From: Spirosoma sp. KCTC 42546 | GTDB lineage: Bacteria > Bacteroidota > Bacteroidia > Cytophagales > Spirosomataceae | Assembly: GCF_006965485.1 (NCBI RefSeq) | Contig: NZ_CP041360.1 | Location: 930,001-994,000, forward strand | Length of the DNA: 64,000 bases | Direction of reading: 5' to 3' | Part shown: positions 47,834 to 54,986 of the stretch, piece by piece | Layout: each line of letters starts with the position of its first letter | Numbering within the stretch: the first letter of the stretch is position 1 | Program-made: the position numbers and the translations under genes | Notes under the pieces: generated by a model | The model's database searches: none | Told to the model about the DNA's origin: nothing | The model's input: the letters and a program-made list of their open reading frames with translations, nothing else

Positions 47834-48526
47834 CTATATTTTTATGCGTTTTTTGCGACCGTTGAGCAGAAACTGCCGCAGTGCTATTGCAATGGCGATG
47901 TAGTAAATCAGGCAAAGTGTTTCTAATAATGTGTTTAAGAGTAAGATTGAATTGCTGGATAATCCCAAAGAATACGTTGGAAACAGGTACTTGTTTGCCA
48001 GTAGTAAGGATAAGCTAAGAATATAAGCACTGATGTATAAGGTGGAGTTTGGTTGTAAACTTGCAGCGTTGACCTCATTCCTATTCTGGTAGAAAAAGAT
48101 AATACTCCTTAACAGATTGCCGAATACTGAACTTGTTACAAATAGAAATCCCGCTCCTAAGGCTGACTCGACGGTTTCCTGCTGCCCCAGGTAAATATTT
48201 AGGATAATCAAGACGATAAACGCCCCCAACCCTATAAACCAGCGCGAACCATACATAAATGATCGAATCAGTTGCCACTCCATCAAACTAAGTTGTAGTG
48301 CTTTCTGCCTCTGATATTCCTCCTCCATTTTCAACAATCCTTTCCTTCCACCAAATCCTGAATGGAGTTCCAGAATGGCTGTGTCGAAAGCCATTCCCTT
48401 ATCAAGACGGTCTTCTATGCCTACTGCGTAATGGTCAGTTAGTTCCGCAATTAGGTCGTTGTTGAGCAGCCAGTTTTCCTTGCGCAGGTGGTTGTCTATG
48501 GCGGTAAGTTGGGCGGGAGTGAGCAT
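47834..48526 (-). CDS. PadR-operon membrane protein, third paralogue (HAAS-like N-terminus)
   Basis: A 230-residue protein: N-terminal soluble helical module (MLTPAQLTAIDNHLRKENWL, then DLIAELTDHYAVGIEDRLDKGM) followed by about five membrane helices. The module resembles HAAS/DUF1700-like domains found with PadR regulators. The ATG at 48526 is preferred because it aligns with the N-termini of the other two paralogues; an ATG nine codons earlier extends into the upstream spacer. It is the last gene of the operon running from the PadR gene. The DNA around its start is nearly identical to that of the first paralogue at 49942, so the set arose by duplication. Confidence 0.8.
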   Translation of the reverse strand: MLTPAQLTAIDNHLRKENWLLNNDLIAELTDHYAVGIEDRLDKGMAFDTAILELHSGFGGRKGLLKMEEEYQRQKALQLSLMEWQLIRSFMYGSRWFIGLGAFIVLIILNIYLGQQETVESALGAGFLFVTSSVFGNLLRSIIFFYQNRNEVNAASLQPNSTLYISAYILSLSLLLANKYLFPTYSLGLSSNSILLLNTLLETLCLIYYIAIAIALRQFLLNGRKKRIKI

Positions 48527-48559
48527 GGTAGGTACTTGAATTATGAATGGCAAATTAGA

Positions 48560-49267
48560 TTAAGCGTTAGCAAAACCTTGAGCAGACTGTTTATGATAAA
48601 GCTCAGCGTAAGTAAGCGTGTACATGATGGCAACAAACGCGAGGGCGGCAGATAAACCGGTATGCCACTCGAACAGATAAGGGTGATTCATTACGGAGTT
48701 TGCACCGTCAAAAAAGAATGACCCCACGAGTATAGGTAGTTGAATGACAACTAAATAAATGTAGTTGCCGTATCGGGCTTGCCGGTAAACGACTTCGCGA
48801 CGAAGGGAAGTCAATAGGGTTTGTTTTCGTATTCGTTTATGCCAAAACAGACGTAGTTCGCTGGGGATAAATAACAGATAGGGTGCAAATACACATACGA
48901 AAAACACCGCAGACAGCATACCCGGCGATAATGCTTTGGCAGTTGAATAGGCCAACAGACCTACTAATAACGTCGTTATAAGTGTGGGCCAGCGAAAATA
49001 ACAGCGTACGATGCCCCAGTGCTGAATCTGTAACTGATGAAGCAATAGTTTTTTATACCGTTCCTGAATGTGTAGAATGCCCGGCCCGCTTCCTAACTCA
49101 AGCCAGGCTTTTCGACTGGCTTCGGCAAAAGAATAATTCTCACCCATCCATTTTTCTGTCAGGCTTGCATAATGATCGAGTAATTCATCCATAACCTCAC
49201 TATAGGTAATGTTGGCTAAATCCAGTAGATCGTGACGAAGTAGGCGAAGTTGGTCGAGGGTGAGCAT
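48560..49267 (-). CDS. PadR-operon membrane protein, second paralogue
   Basis: A 235-residue protein of the same plan: MLTLDQLRLLRHDLLDLANI, DELLDHYASLTEKWMGENYS and GSGPGILHIQERYKK match the N-terminal module of its two neighbours at lower identity, then four or five membrane helices follow. ATG 49267 lies 3 bases after the stop of the first paralogue, so translation is probably coupled. Function unknown; the pair pattern suggests a membrane sensor or a partner of a permease controlled by PadR. Confidence 0.78.
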   Translation of the reverse strand: MLTLDQLRLLRHDLLDLANITYSEVMDELLDHYASLTEKWMGENYSFAEASRKAWLELGSGPGILHIQERYKKLLLHQLQIQHWGIVRCYFRWPTLITTLLVGLLAYSTAKALSPGMLSAVFFVCVFAPYLLFIPSELRLFWHKRIRKQTLLTSLRREVVYRQARYGNYIYLVVIQLPILVGSFFFDGANSVMNHPYLFEWHTGLSAALAFVAIMYTLTYAELYHKQSAQGFANA

Positions 49268-49270
49268 GGG

Positions 49271-49942
49271 TTAGTTGGCTAAAGCCTTGGAGCGACGAGG
49301 CTGAATCAGAACAAAATCGATAATAACCGTCCAGACAAATAGATACACGAAAACAATGGTTGTTTGGTAAGGTATTGAATAGGTTGAAATTGCCCGGATA
49401 GTGGTGCTTCCCCAGAAAAAATTAAGTATGTTCAATAAATTGATCGCAAGAATATACCTGTAGAAAACATCCCAAAACGGTTTCATCGACTGCCTGTTTC
49501 CAGCTACGTATGAATAGCCATTTCGCATAAAGAAGGCAATTATGGGTAAGCTCGAAATACTCACCAAAGAAATGTTGACCCAATCCATCCAATCGTTGAT
49601 GAGCCCTTCTGTTGTAGACCAATAGGCTGTGCCCAGCAGTAATAAGGTTAAACTCAACCGGGGAGGTCTAAAATAACTCCCAATTAATTGTCTTAACTGC
49701 CTGGCTATAATTGGGGTATGGTTTCTTTTTTTCTCCTCTTCCATATCAAGTAGTCCCGCACGCCCACCGAAATTTTGATGAATTTCACGCAGCGCAACAT
49801 CAAAAGCCATCCCCTACGCTAGTTTCTCGTCAATGCTGTTGATGTAATGGTCGGTGAGTTCAGTAATCAGGTCTTCATTGAGCAACCAGTTTTCCTTTCG
49901 CAGGTGATTGTCTATGGCGGAGAGTTGGATGGGAGTGAGCAT
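49271..49942 (-). pseudogene. PadR-operon membrane protein, first paralogue, interrupted by amber codon
   Basis: From ATG 49942 the frame reads MLTPIQLSAIDNHLRKENWL and onward, almost identical to the third paralogue. After 42 codons it meets TAG at 49816-49814 exactly where the paralogue has the Lys of LDKGMAFD. The frame then continues GMAFDVALREIHQNFGG to 49271 without further damage, with about four membrane helices. One base change (AAG to TAG) explains it. Either a recent pseudogene, a base error, or stop read-through; restart at the ATG 49810 is possible but would lose most of the soluble module. Confidence 0.8.
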
Positions 49943-49944
49943 AA

Positions 49945-50289
49945 TTAAATACTAGGTTTCAATTTCAATACCAGATTTAGATTCTCCAGAAACGAGGCTA
50001 ATTCAGCGATGCGTCCGGCGGCTTCGGTATGGCCGGTTTTGGTAAGTGAGTAGTACTTGCGGGCGCGGCCATCCACAATTTGCGTTTCGGTGGAGAGTAA
50101 ACCTTCGGCTTCGAGTTTGTGCAGCGCGGGGTAAAGGGCGCCTTCGGTAATAGCCATTTCGCCTGCTGTCAGGTCTTTCACTTTCTGCGTAATCTCGTAG
50201 CCGTACATCTTCTCACGGTCTTCGAGCAACCGCAAAATCATGACCGACAGGCTACCTTTCAGTAAAGAGGAGTTATTGGGTGCGTTCAT
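49945..50289 (-). CDS. PadR-family transcriptional regulator
   Basis: A 114-residue winged-helix regulator. SLLKGSLSVMILRLLEDREKMYGYEI, then ITEGALYPALHKLEAEGLLSTE and the wing residues RARKYYSLTKTG are the PadR hallmark. The C-terminal helix serves dimerisation. It heads an operon with three related membrane-protein genes; the next start follows 2 bases after its stop. A strong promoter with -7 box ends 4 bases before its ATG, so it may be leaderless and autoregulated. Confidence 0.93.
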   Translation of the reverse strand: MNAPNNSSLLKGSLSVMILRLLEDREKMYGYEITQKVKDLTAGEMAITEGALYPALHKLEAEGLLSTETQIVDGRARKYYSLTKTGHTEAAGRIAELASFLENLNLVLKLKPSI

Positions 50290-52304: not shown

Positions 52305-52425
52305 GTTGGTAATAAGTTGACTGAGTGGAGTAAGGTCATTATATGAAGCTGGATTCTTCAATAACAACCTGGTTAAATCTGGCTTGACTCACTCCACCTA
52401 TTTCACTGACTCCACTAGTTACTAC
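52305..52425. repeat. GACTGAGTGGAG-word inverted repeat
   Basis: TTGACTGAGTGGAGTAAGG on the left is answered by TGACTCACTCCACC and TGACTCCACT on the right, between convergent genes. The right part runs into the end of the SAM-transferase gene. Confidence 0.55.
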
Positions 52426-53314
52426 TCACAACTATTGTCCATTCTGGCCCACTAAATACTTTATAGGTCTCCGAAAAACTGCCCTGATTAACCGCAACCG
52501 AAAAGTTCATCAGGCTATTGATATACGCCATATCCTCGCCGATGGCAACCTCGCCAAACGTATTTACCCAACGAACGGATTTGTCGTAGAGGAGCTTATC
52601 GTTTTGGTAAATCTGAACATGAAGGGGGGCTCCCGGTTTCACACCGAGTTGCTCAATCATAGCCTTAGGGATATTGCTCCAGACGTTCCCGTACTGAATA
52701 TCGAGTATGGGGATATTCCCCTTTACAATTCTACCCTTGTATTCTGCTTTCTGGTACGGTAATCGAACCACTTCATTTGGCAACTTCGCGCCAACCTGTT
52801 CAAAGGTAATGGTGCGCGAAGCCAGTCGGGCTGCGGTGTAGGCATATACATCCCGTCCGTGGAAGGTATAGGATTCATTTGAGTTTTTTCGCCGATTAAT
52901 CGCTTCGTTAATTTGCCGGACTTGACTGATACCTAGTTGCTCGGCTACTAACGTGAGGGTACCATTGTCGGGCGTAACGATGTAATGTCCGGATTTTGTG
53001 AGCAGTACAACCGAGTGACGATCTGTACCCACGCCCGGATCGCAAACTGATACAAAAACGGTTCCTTTTGGATAGTAAGGCGCTGTTTGGTAGAGCCTAT
53101 AGGCCGCTTCCCAAATGTTGTAGGCCGGAATCTCGTGTGTGAGATCAAACAATTTGAGCGTTGGTGATACGCCCAGCGCTACGCCTTTCATCGCCGATAC
53201 TGCCCCATCTTTCAGGCCAAAATCGGACTGAAAGACGACAATGCCATTCTGAGCCTGAACCAGTTGCTGAGTAGTTAAGAAAAAGAAGAGGATAAACCCG
53301 TAGATAATACGCAT
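52415..53314 (-). CDS. Exported SAM hydroxide adenosyltransferase-like protein (DUF62 family)
   Basis: A 299-residue protein. Signal peptide MRIIYGFILFFFLTTQQLVQA, then the family motifs VVFQSDFGLKDGAVSAMKG (Asp near residue 30), FDLTHEIPAYNIWEAAYRL, VFVSVCDPGVGTDRH, YIVTPDNGTLTLVAE and SYTFHGRDVYAY. The family hydrolyses S-adenosylmethionine to adenosine and methionine with hydroxide as attacker. Export is odd, because SAM is cytoplasmic. ATG 53314 starts the signal peptide; an earlier ATG would overlap the rhodopsin stop. It follows the rhodopsin gene by about 32 bp on the same strand, so they may be one unit. Confidence 0.88.
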   Translation of the reverse strand: MRIIYGFILFFFLTTQQLVQAQNGIVVFQSDFGLKDGAVSAMKGVALGVSPTLKLFDLTHEIPAYNIWEAAYRLYQTAPYYPKGTVFVSVCDPGVGTDRHSVVLLTKSGHYIVTPDNGTLTLVAEQLGISQVRQINEAINRRKNSNESYTFHGRDVYAYTAARLASRTITFEQVGAKLPNEVVRLPYQKAEYKGRIVKGNIPILDIQYGNVWSNIPKAMIEQLGVKPGAPLHVQIYQNDKLLYDKSVRWVNTFGEVAIGEDMAYINSLMNFSVAVNQGSFSETYKVFSGPEWTIVVSSN

Positions 53315-53346
53315 AAGGCCAGATTTTGGAAGTTGGAATGAAGGAC

Positions 53347-54171
53347 TTACAAATTGATAGTCCACCGATTCATATTCACTAAATAAATAATCATTCCTAT
53401 ACCAATCAAACTCACTACGTCGGCAAGCGTAAACGCAAGGTGAATCCAGTTAAAATCAATAGGGGTAAGGCTCAGGAAATAGCCAATGAAATAAATTGCC
53501 CAGGCTCCCGCTATTATCTGGGCCGATAGTCGGAAAGCTGGATGCGCCTGTCCACCGAATTCTTTCCAGAGTCGGTTTAGTGTGAAGAGGATCGAGACAT
53601 AGTCGATCAGGGCAATAAGTCCCCAGACTAATTTGGGTACAAGCTGAATTTCGTTGTCGAATGACAGCTGCTCGTGACCGATATAGCTGGCAAACACCAT
53701 GAATAGCGTGGCCATCAGTAGACCCGCTATTTGTCGTTTGTGAGCGCTAACCTGAATGCGAAGTAAGTTGAGTAATTGAAATAGCAGTAAGGGCGTAGTA
53801 ATAAACCAGGCCATGTAACGATACTGTCCAATAGCATTATACGACTCCCGAATAAGCGTCTGTCGATCATTCGGATCGCTCACAGTAGCTATTTCTGACA
53901 GTGTATTGTAGTAATAGGTCTGAATCAGGTAATAGGTAAGGCCTGCTACAGCGACACTAATAATAGTCAAACTAGAAATCGTGCTATAGACCGGGCTTTC
54001 CTGAGCTGGGCCAGTCATTCTTGGCGAAACCAGTGCGAAGATGAACATGCCTAAAAAGGCAAACATAGCTACGATCAGGAAAAAATACGTAACCATGGGT
54101 AAAAGACCAACAGTGCCTGCCGTTGGAATAAATGAATCGGCAACTTCCATAAAAACAGAAATGGTAGGCAT
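53347..54171 (-). CDS. Microbial rhodopsin homologue lacking the retinal-binding lysine
   Basis: A 274-residue seven-helix protein. Helix C reads QYRYMAWFITTPLLLFQLL, the R-Y-x-x-W and T-T-P-L-L-L signature of type 1 rhodopsins, but the proton-acceptor Asp (bacteriorhodopsin D85) is Ala and D96 is Gln. Helix F is WAIYFIGY, with W and Y kept and the Pro replaced by Phe. Helix G reads FTLADVVSLIGIGMIIY: the Asp (D212) is kept but Leu (TTG, 53409-53407) replaces the Schiff-base Lys. It cannot bind retinal covalently in the usual way. ATG 54171 lies in the loop of a perfect hairpin; ATG 54150 (MEVADSFIP) is the alternative. A DUF305 lipoprotein gene is upstream and a SAM-transferase gene downstream. 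Confidence 0.85.
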   Translation of the reverse strand: MPTISVFMEVADSFIPTAGTVGLLPMVTYFFLIVAMFAFLGMFIFALVSPRMTGPAQESPVYSTISSLTIISVAVAGLTYYLIQTYYYNTLSEIATVSDPNDRQTLIRESYNAIGQYRYMAWFITTPLLLFQLLNLLRIQVSAHKRQIAGLLMATLFMVFASYIGHEQLSFDNEIQLVPKLVWGLIALIDYVSILFTLNRLWKEFGGQAHPAFRLSAQIIAGAWAIYFIGYFLSLTPIDFNWIHLAFTLADVVSLIGIGMIIYLVNMNRWTINL

Positions 54172-54188: not shown

Positions 54189-54213
54189 TTAAACGCACCG
54201 CATAACCACTCGT

Positions 54214-54858
54214 TTATTTAGGCATTGCCTTAATTTGAGTCATTTCCACCTTCGATTTGTCAATCAACTGCTGGGCATAGGTCCGCAGCGTAGCGTTTTT
54301 TCCGTATTGCAGGTAGGTTGTAGCCAGGTCAATTGCATCCTGACGATGATCGAGCAATAAGGTTGAAAAGTTCTTATCCAGATTGCCCGTCAATTTATCG
54401 CTGGAACCTGTTTGCTGCAATTTCAGGCTCATGGCTTCAATATTGCGGCTTTGTTGCTGGGAAAAAGCCTGGACGGGGCGCGTTGGCTTGAGCTGACGGA
54501 GCGTTCCATCGAGCATAGTCACATCCGAATCGGTAGTTGTCAGCAGCGTTTTGGCCATTTTGGTTAGTGCTGTATCTTTCCCGCTCTGGATTTCCTGTTT
54601 CAGTAGATTCTGGGCACCTTGTGCATGAAGTTTAGCTTGAAAAGCATAATCAAAGTCCGGGTCGCCCGTTGGTACCAGCTTCTTTATTTGGGTAACCGTC
54701 TGCTGCAAAGGGACAAGAAGCGTTGTTTTAGCCGGATCGTTGGTAGTAGAAGTGGCTGCGGTTGTGCCGGTTGTTGCCTGGGCACAGGCCGCTAGCGAAC
54801 CACTGGACAAGAGGGCGGCAATAGCCCAGATTGATAAATTGGATTGGAGCGTTTTCAT
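54214..54858 (-). CDS. DUF305-type lipoprotein
   Basis: A 214-residue protein with lipoprotein leader ending SGSLAAC (lipobox L-A-A-C about residues 21-24) and a Thr/Ala-rich linker. The rest is helical and matches the DUF305 pattern twice: DPDFDYAFQAKLHAQGAQNLL near residue 65 and a later FSTLLLDHRQDAIDLATTYL near residue 170. DUF305 proteins are ferritin-like bundles, often with metal or copper context; the usual H-H pair is weakened here (KLHAQG, LDHRQD), so metal binding is uncertain. ATG 54858 starts the leader. It is the first gene of the DUF305-rhodopsin-SAM-transferase run. Confidence 0.8.
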   Translation of the reverse strand: MKTLQSNLSIWAIAALLSSGSLAACAQATTGTTAATSTTNDPAKTTLLVPLQQTVTQIKKLVPTGDPDFDYAFQAKLHAQGAQNLLKQEIQSGKDTALTKMAKTLLTTTDSDVTMLDGTLRQLKPTRPVQAFSQQQSRNIEAMSLKLQQTGSSDKLTGNLDKNFSTLLLDHRQDAIDLATTYLQYGKNATLRTYAQQLIDKSKVEMTQIKAMPK

Positions 54859-54986
54859 TGTGTGTACTGAGTTCATGGAATACGTTTCGCCGGTAAAGTA
54901 ACTGGCTTATACTCTAAAGACAAGAATTAGGCCAGAAGGTTTAGTGGATGTGGCTTAGTGGCAGAGAGATAAGCTGATTCTACCCA

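Follow-up and report, generated by a model that had tools for sequence, protein, structure and literature searches.

A microbial rhodopsin of Spirosoma without the retinal-binding lysine and with conservation turned towards the periplasm

The window analysed here is a stretch of 64,000 nucleotides from Spirosoma sp. KCTC 42546 (contig NZ_CP041360.1, positions 930,001 to 994,000), and its gene of interest encodes a microbial rhodopsin that lacks the lysine to which retinal binds (Table 1). An earlier note on this DNA had described the gene as an intact rhodopsin gene, and its frame is indeed open to the stop codon at 53347, giving 283 residues from the GTG at 54198 or 274 residues from the ATG at 54171; the residue numbers used here are those of the longer frame. 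The protein matches the Pfam family Bac_rhodopsin (PF01036) over residues 36–274 with 62.3 bits (cut-off 24.6). The PDB sequences listed as its matches are all microbial rhodopsins (50 entries in one search, the best 60 of 135 in another), and none belongs to another seven-helix family, which the earlier note had named as a possible objection. When solved structures were searched with a profile, Exiguobacterium rhodopsin (chain 4hyj, 3.4e-25) ranked first, followed by CryoR2, Gloeobacter rhodopsin (6nwd), psXR and others including xanthorhodopsin. The AlphaFold2 model contains seven main helices (mean predicted local distance difference test score, pLDDT, 91.9; predicted template modelling score 0.88), of which B and C are long with 35 and 37 residues, and it agrees with solved microbial rhodopsins in comparisons by Foldseek and VIA-align. 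The motifs that the earlier note had recognized in helices C, F and G are all present: R127-Y128, W131, T134-T135-P136-L-L-L, W233, Y236 and L-A-D260.

Alignments with PDB sequences place Leu264 opposite the Schiff-base lysine, four residues past Asp260, the equivalent of D212 in bacteriorhodopsin (bR). The columns of bR D85, D96, D212 and K216 are occupied by Ala130, Gln141, Asp260 and Leu264, and the codons of Leu264 and Ala130 lie exactly where the earlier note had placed them. The protein thus lacks both the D85 counterion and the D96 carboxylate of a proton pump of the xanthorhodopsin type. Its only lysines are residues 4, 154, 189 and 212, the last three of which are located near helix ends in the model. 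Since none of them lies within the membrane-core ranges used, a substitute Schiff base is unlikely. An error of alignment or annotation, with the lysine elsewhere or the protein in a different seven-helix family, could draw on the 13 of 58 lysine-less relatives that contain another lysine within these ranges, at scattered positions. We regard this explanation as refuted for the window protein. To judge from its sequence, the protein belongs to the rhodopsin family by descent, whereas functionally it is no retinal Schiff-base rhodopsin.

Table 1. Positions in the window of the rhodopsin gene, its diagnostic residues and loops, and two adjacent genes.
Feature	Position	Strand	Basis	Remark
Lysine-less microbial rhodopsin	53347..54171	-	Open reading frame; PF01036 62.3 bits; AlphaFold2 pLDDT 91.9	
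Leu264 (codon TTG)	53407..53409	-	Alignments	bR K216 (Schiff-base) column
Ala130 (codon GCC)	53809..53811	-	Alignments	bR D85 (counterion) column
Gln141	53776..53778	-	Alignment	bR D96 (proton-donor) column; Gln likewise in 28 sister lysine-bearing sequences
Asp260	53419..53421	-	Alignment	bR D212 column; Asp in 57/57 lysine-less sequences examined
Phe237	53488..53490	-	Alignment	bR P186 column; Pro in 18/28 sister lysine-bearing and 7/57 lysine-less sequences
Gly193	53620..53622	-	Alignment	bR W138 column; Gly in 54/57 lysine-less sequences
B–C periplasmic hairpin, residues 96–124	53827..53913	-	Column conservation, model	Strongly conserved
D–E periplasmic loop, residues 176–189	53632..53673	-	Column conservation	EQLSFDNEIQ; strongly conserved
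F–G periplasmic loop, residues 244–252	53443..53469	-	Column conservation	DFNWI (DFNWIH); strongly conserved
DUF305-family protein	54214..54876	-	PF03713 2.5e-14	LAAC31 lipobox-like (by eye); directly upstream; possible operon partner
S-adenosylmethionine (SAM) hydroxide adenosyltransferase-family open reading frame	52415..53365	-	PF01887/PF20257	Downstream; cluster 7, 14/35 loci; context only

The relatives of the window protein were taken as the best 120 of 209 homologues, and the species names, where given, are Spirosoma and a few Hymenobacter. Two short proteins (P0008 and P0104) were dropped, 16 further genome copies were added, and 17 loci with a core identical to listed proteins were merged. 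An interrupted gene of S. telluris (L077) was left out, and locus L088 gave no match. The resulting set of 135 aligned sequences, referred to here as the S-clade, was combined with four outgroup sequences in a 139-sequence tree built without columns 130 and 264. A second tree contained a hand-picked subset of 71 of these sequences.

The lysine is present in 77 of the 135 S-clade sequences and absent from 58. Among the latter is the nearest relative within the best 120 of 209 homologues, which is 97% identical to the window protein and bears the source name Spirosoma migulaei, so that chance or a sequencing slip can be ruled out. The lysine is replaced by Gln (14 sequences), Leu (13, relatives of the kind for which the earlier note had proposed a search), Ile (12), Val (9), Tyr (5), Cys (2), Ser, Met and His (one each), a pattern as after a lifted constraint. 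The best 139-sequence tree requires at least eight changes of the lysine state, five of which are forced by starred branches. A single lysine-less clade was rejected for the 71-sequence set (approximately unbiased test, p-AU 1.7e-51). The trees indicate that the lysine has been lost repeatedly within the S-clade, eight (71-sequence tree) or ten times (139-sequence tree) if it was never regained. All six Hymenobacter proteins, which come from one scan of named GTDB genomes with nine Spirosoma and six Hymenobacter loci, keep the lysine. The loss is therefore observed in Spirosoma only, many of the sequences being metagenome proteins and the lysine column outside Spirosoma having been inspected in the fetched rhodopsins only. 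Three loci (L053, L061 and L068, in genomes G194, G200 and G206) form a deep lysine-bearing branch of the S-clade that has Thr in the D96 column; they share a Cys in helix G and the same DUF305 neighbour. Two lysine-less proteins, P0004 and P0010, bear the automatic label 'bacteriorhodopsin'; such labels can mislead on phototrophy.

The loss of the lysine is accompanied by the loss of the counterion. Asp or Glu occupies the D85 column in all 77 lysine-bearing sequences of the S-clade and in one of the 58 lysine-less ones. The exception, P0033, keeps Asp at the D85 column and has Gln at the lysine column, which is the state predicted if the lysine is lost first and the counterion second, the acid being needed only as long as there is a protonated Schiff base to balance. 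Read comparatively, the pattern suggests that a protonated Schiff base is formed in the lysine-bearing relatives but not in the lysine-less ones.

The window's genome, a single contig of 8.66 Mb, yielded one match to PF01036 in a profile search, and no second rhodopsin. It also contains no match to the Blh family (PF15461), the model of which matched in 72 of 222 genomes, and none to the RPE65 family (PF03055). An S-clade gene is present in 29 of 36 Spirosoma genomes, with the lysine only in 16, lysine-less only in 12 and of both kinds in one (G197); it was not found in the other seven, which include two incomplete assemblies (G205 and G209). Across the 36 genomes, Blh-type genes occur in ten and RPE65-type genes in six. 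One or the other is found in 1 of the 13 genomes with a lysine-less gene, in comparison with 8 of the 16 genomes with lysine-bearing genes only (Fisher p 0.02, without a correction for kinship). The one genome, G211, contains Blh, and a xanthorhodopsin-type gene adjoins it. RPE65-family enzymes adjoin N-D-Q rhodopsins at G194:C7:271578-273938 and G204:C1:4040347-4042706, a motif set that we take to be sodium-pump-like, and these enzymes are an apparent alternative to Blh for retinal formation in Spirosoma.

The earlier note had considered a light-independent partner among the possible roles of the protein. The lysine-less rhodopsin could be a subunit that tunes another, retinal-binding rhodopsin, as in the model published for betaproteobacterial Rh-noK in tandem with proteorhodopsin (excerpts of PMC10308929). 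A second rhodopsin is encoded in G197 and G211, two of the 13 genomes with a lysine-less gene. This role is contradicted by the single PF01036 match in the window's genome, and 11 of the 13 genomes likewise have no other match, which makes a tuning partner very improbable.

With the membrane topology taken from known rhodopsins, the mean column information of the 58 lysine-less sequences is 3.32 bits in the periplasmic regions, 2.32 in the membrane and 1.77 in the cytoplasmic regions. The corresponding values for 42 xanthorhodopsin-type sequences are 2.45 (41 of 71 columns), 3.32 and 2.91 bits (30 of 36 columns). The control omits twelve locus identifiers, which stand for unusual rhodopsins (the NDQ type among them) and two partial genes; in some cases one gene appears under two identifiers. 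Since the sets differ in breadth, the order inside each set counts and not the levels. Identity among the lysine-less sequences follows the same course, with 72% outside, 51% in the membrane and 24% inside. The periplasmic conservation is carried by the B–C hairpin, the D–E loop and the F–G loop. Judged from these columns, the conservation order in the S-clade is the reverse of that in ordinary pumps, the periplasmic side being the highest. Known and proposed transducers of rhodopsins act within the membrane or at its cytoplasmic face, and the periplasmic focus is therefore unusual.

Pairwise ratios of nonsynonymous to synonymous substitution rates (dN/dS, Nei-Gojobori) of the rhodopsin are 0.10–0.23 in six lysine-less pairs and 0.04–0.34 in ten lysine-bearing pairs. 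Where pairs could be compared, the values of the MurA-like and DUF305 neighbours are lower. The lysine-less gene is therefore constrained by purifying selection, but more loosely than its neighbours. The latter difference would be expected if retinal had been lost and the opsin were on its way out. Such decay is also suggested by the seven of 36 Spirosoma genomes in which the DUF305 neighbour was found without the gene, for the most part in the same surroundings, and by the lysine-less copy of Spirosoma telluris (L103; G213:C1:3904368-3905027), which contains an in-frame TAA that reflects either decay or an assembly error. However, the low dN/dS holds for all six lysine-less pairs, the frames are open in 12 of the 13 Spirosoma genomes with a lysine-less gene, and one lysine-less clade alone comprises 36 sequences. 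We consider a decaying gene quite unlikely.

In 29 of 35 S-clade loci, a co-directional DUF305 homologue lies upstream of the rhodopsin, at a distance of 9–81 bases in 28 of them; next to the interrupted S. telluris copy, it is 323 bases away. The window's DUF305 protein matches PF03713 with 54.1 bits (cut-off 27) and reaches 64 bits with the CopM model NF049983, below the cut-off of 90 bits. The copper-binding Met/His motif of CopM, which we take to be M..HH..M, reads L..HR..L by eye in the window's protein. The Cys of its LAAC motif is among the columns that are at least 95% conserved in the 29 homologues.

Based on these observations, a course of events can be proposed. The protein is a true microbial rhodopsin and has probably ceased to be a retinal Schiff-base protein. 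In Spirosoma, the opsin gene may have outlasted the loss of home-made retinal. Without bound retinal, many different residues would have replaced the lysine by drift, and the counterion would have been lost afterwards. The seven-transmembrane scaffold may have been retained because its periplasmic face serves another function, the likeliest being the docking of a periplasmic partner. The first candidate is the co-directional, lipoprotein-like DUF305 protein, for which we infer docking to the rhodopsin. We assign a probability of about one half to the reading that a former retinal protein has been kept as a light-blind seven-transmembrane scaffold with a periplasmic role. No visible absorption of a Schiff base and no pumping would be expected from such a scaffold. 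Of the roles offered in the earlier note, light independence is the best supported, given the missing counterion and the lack of Blh and RPE65 matches, whereas partnership with another rhodopsin fails on the single PF01036 gene.

Several observations weigh against the scaffold reading or against parts of it. A periplasmic role gained with the loss of the lysine is called into question by the 77 lysine-bearing S-clade sequences, in which the conservation has the same order (periplasmic 2.98, membrane 2.60, cytoplasmic 2.05 bits); being common to them, the periplasmic focus predates the loss. In comparison with their lysine-bearing sisters, the periplasmic regions of the lysine-less sequences change by −0.09 to −0.25 bits; the membrane helices lose 0.13 to 0.51 bits, and the periplasmic loss is smaller than most of these. 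Twelve lysine-bearing relatives without a DUF305 neighbour are 48% identical to the lysine-less sequences in the periplasmic regions and 43% in the membrane. DUF305 relatives occur in all 36 Spirosoma genomes, including the seven in which no S-clade rhodopsin was found, where they mostly occupy the usual neighbourhood and have no rhodopsin match next to them (their orthology being judged by best match and neighbours). The DUF305 gene thus leads a life of its own, and its role as an obligate partner is weakened. For the link between the D85 and K216 columns, a phylogenetic sign test has too few pairs (five; p 0.06–0.125), and two of the six Hymenobacter relatives (L114 and L116) combine the lysine with Ser at the D85 column, so that the link is not a strict rule. 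Gln at the D96 column is common to the sister lysine-bearing sequences and is therefore uninformative on the loss of the lysine. Neither Blh nor RPE65 was found in 8 of the 16 genomes with only lysine-bearing genes; the absence of Blh was accordingly rejected as a simple cause of the loss, and another retinal-forming enzyme or scavenged retinal may serve instead.

The state of the retinal pocket weighs against an empty pocket in a light-blind protein. We compared 57 lysine-less sequences (L078_G214 was left out) with 28 sister lysine-bearing ones. W131 and Y236 are each kept in 55 of the 57, Y240 in 56 and D260 in all, and R127 is present in all 121 aligned sequences. W233 is even commoner in the lysine-less sequences (51/57) than in their sisters (10/28). 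The changed columns are K216, D85, P186, T142 and a few others, and the remainder of the pocket is retained. Apart from columns 130 and 264, 19 pocket columns were tested and are no more relaxed than matched membrane columns (P 0.77); a relaxation seen in comparison with all 77 lysine-bearing sequences (P 0.009) disappeared in this comparison with the sisters. Many apparent gains of conservation in the lysine-less sequences also shrink under the sister control, the largest that are left including W233, W251, M35, S179, R209, D108 and T114. There is no sign of a plugged pocket at the 21 contact positions, the residue volumes of which sum to 3053 cubic angstroms in the sister and 3090 in the lysine-less sequences; control membrane columns show a similar rise.

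The retained residues make a non-covalent ligand possible, as the earlier note had suggested for retinal or another hydrophobic molecule, a proposal that the intact aromatic cage keeps alive. The pocket could hold a carotenoid in the fenestration, or else an apocarotenoid or retinal that the cell has scavenged, and the protein would then be a ligand or light sensor with new chemistry. Besides the cage, this explanation draws on Gly193, which occupies the column that we take to be the carotenoid-fenestration glycine of xanthorhodopsins and is kept in 54 of 57 sequences. Phytoene synthase-family genes and strong lycopene cyclase-family matches are each found in 35 of 36 Spirosoma genomes, with strong matches to both in the window's genome; G206 has only weak matches to the cyclase. 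The structural matches of the window protein include zeaxanthin-bound Kin4B8 and NM-R1. On the other hand, the counterion and mostly also the proline at P186 are gone and the residue at the lysine position varies, which argues against a new specific contact there, and packing may also explain the retained cage residues. A bound ligand is therefore doubtful. In a wider version of the scaffold reading, the Spirosoma opsin would have been converted many times, mostly at the same locus, to a non-Schiff-base seven-transmembrane receptor or scaffold that signals via its periplasmic face, perhaps gated by a non-covalent hydrophobic ligand such as a carotenoid in the aromatic cage, and perhaps acting with the exported DUF305 protein. 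We consider this combination unlikely.

The wider settings of the S-clade loci are of two kinds, one with an EPSP-synthase-family (MurA-like) gene and an ABC transporter, the other with MATE and carboxylase-like genes (the carboxylase named by eye). The SAM hydroxide adenosyltransferase-family frame downstream of the window's rhodopsin starts, by eye, with a signal-peptide-like stretch, and an enzyme of this SAM-splitting type would, given such a start, sit outside the cytoplasm. As listed, the frame overlaps the end of the rhodopsin gene, and translation more likely starts at an internal ATG. A PadR-family regulator and tandem, related frames that resemble membrane proteins (two were scanned and had no Pfam match) lie at 47834–50289; their clusters adjoin the S-clade locus in 12 and 13 of 35 loci.

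The role of lysine-less rhodopsins is a question that Spirosoma addresses with a natural series, which comprises lysine-bearing and lysine-less sisters in the same neighbourhood, the intermediate P0033, neighbourhoods free of a rhodopsin, and lone lysine-less opsins. In genomes of the last kind, in which no known retinal gene was found, a light-independent function is directly testable, with no confusion from a neighbouring proteorhodopsin and in bacteria that are not known to be harmful.

Microbial rhodopsins without the retinal-binding lysine have been named Rh-noK (Yamauchi et al. 2019, as cited in excerpts of PMC7714340 and PMC10308929), and about 600 of 5,558 known genes lack the lysine according to the same part of PMC7714340. 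The window protein belongs to this kind as a type 1 rhodopsin homologue in which the lysine equivalent to K216 is replaced. Some Rh-noK genes stand in tandem with proteorhodopsin and retinal genes (excerpts of both papers), an arrangement that does not strictly define the kind. The window's gene differs from them as the sole rhodopsin found in its genome, with no Blh or RPE65 found, and its group differs in that close relatives within it have repeatedly lost the lysine and, with it, the counterion. In FArhodopsins of freshwater subclades, Q, T, L or R replaces the lysine, and retinal-less or blind roles have been proposed (excerpts of PMC10308929). No flotillin family, the neighbour typical of FArhodopsins, was matched among the 11 neighbouring proteins scanned between 48560 and 60154, and solved FArhodopsins score 54–56 bits against the window family profile, in comparison with 79–92 bits for the xanthorhodopsin type.

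The xanthorhodopsin, Gloeobacter and Exiguobacterium group is among the nearest solved relatives by profile. The window protein shares its fenestration glycine, presumably the mark of carotenoid-antenna rhodopsins, but has lost K216, D85 and the carboxylate donor. The conservation order is inverted, and the mean periplasmic identity to four xanthorhodopsin-type sequences from the same family of bacteria is 15%. CryoR2 is the top match in Foldseek and the second in the profile search. CryoRhodopsins bind retinal and have a conserved neighbour that is read as a putative cytoplasmic transducer (excerpts of PMC12227055), whereas the window group is conserved on its periplasmic face and has a neighbour that appears to be exported. 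Fungal opsin-related proteins lack the lysine and have light-independent roles in H+-ATPase regulation and as a chaperone (excerpts of PMC7714340); they are eukaryotic, and the likeness is one of description. From S. oryzae, a rhodopsin with the NDQ motif has been described (excerpts of PMC7979833). Lysine-less rhodopsins are thus already known as a kind, of which the Spirosoma group is a repeatedly evolved variant. As far as the literature was searched, the new elements are the Spirosoma group itself, the repeated loss of the lysine, the coupled loss of the counterion with an intermediate, the lone status without a known retinal gene, and the conservation turned towards the periplasm.
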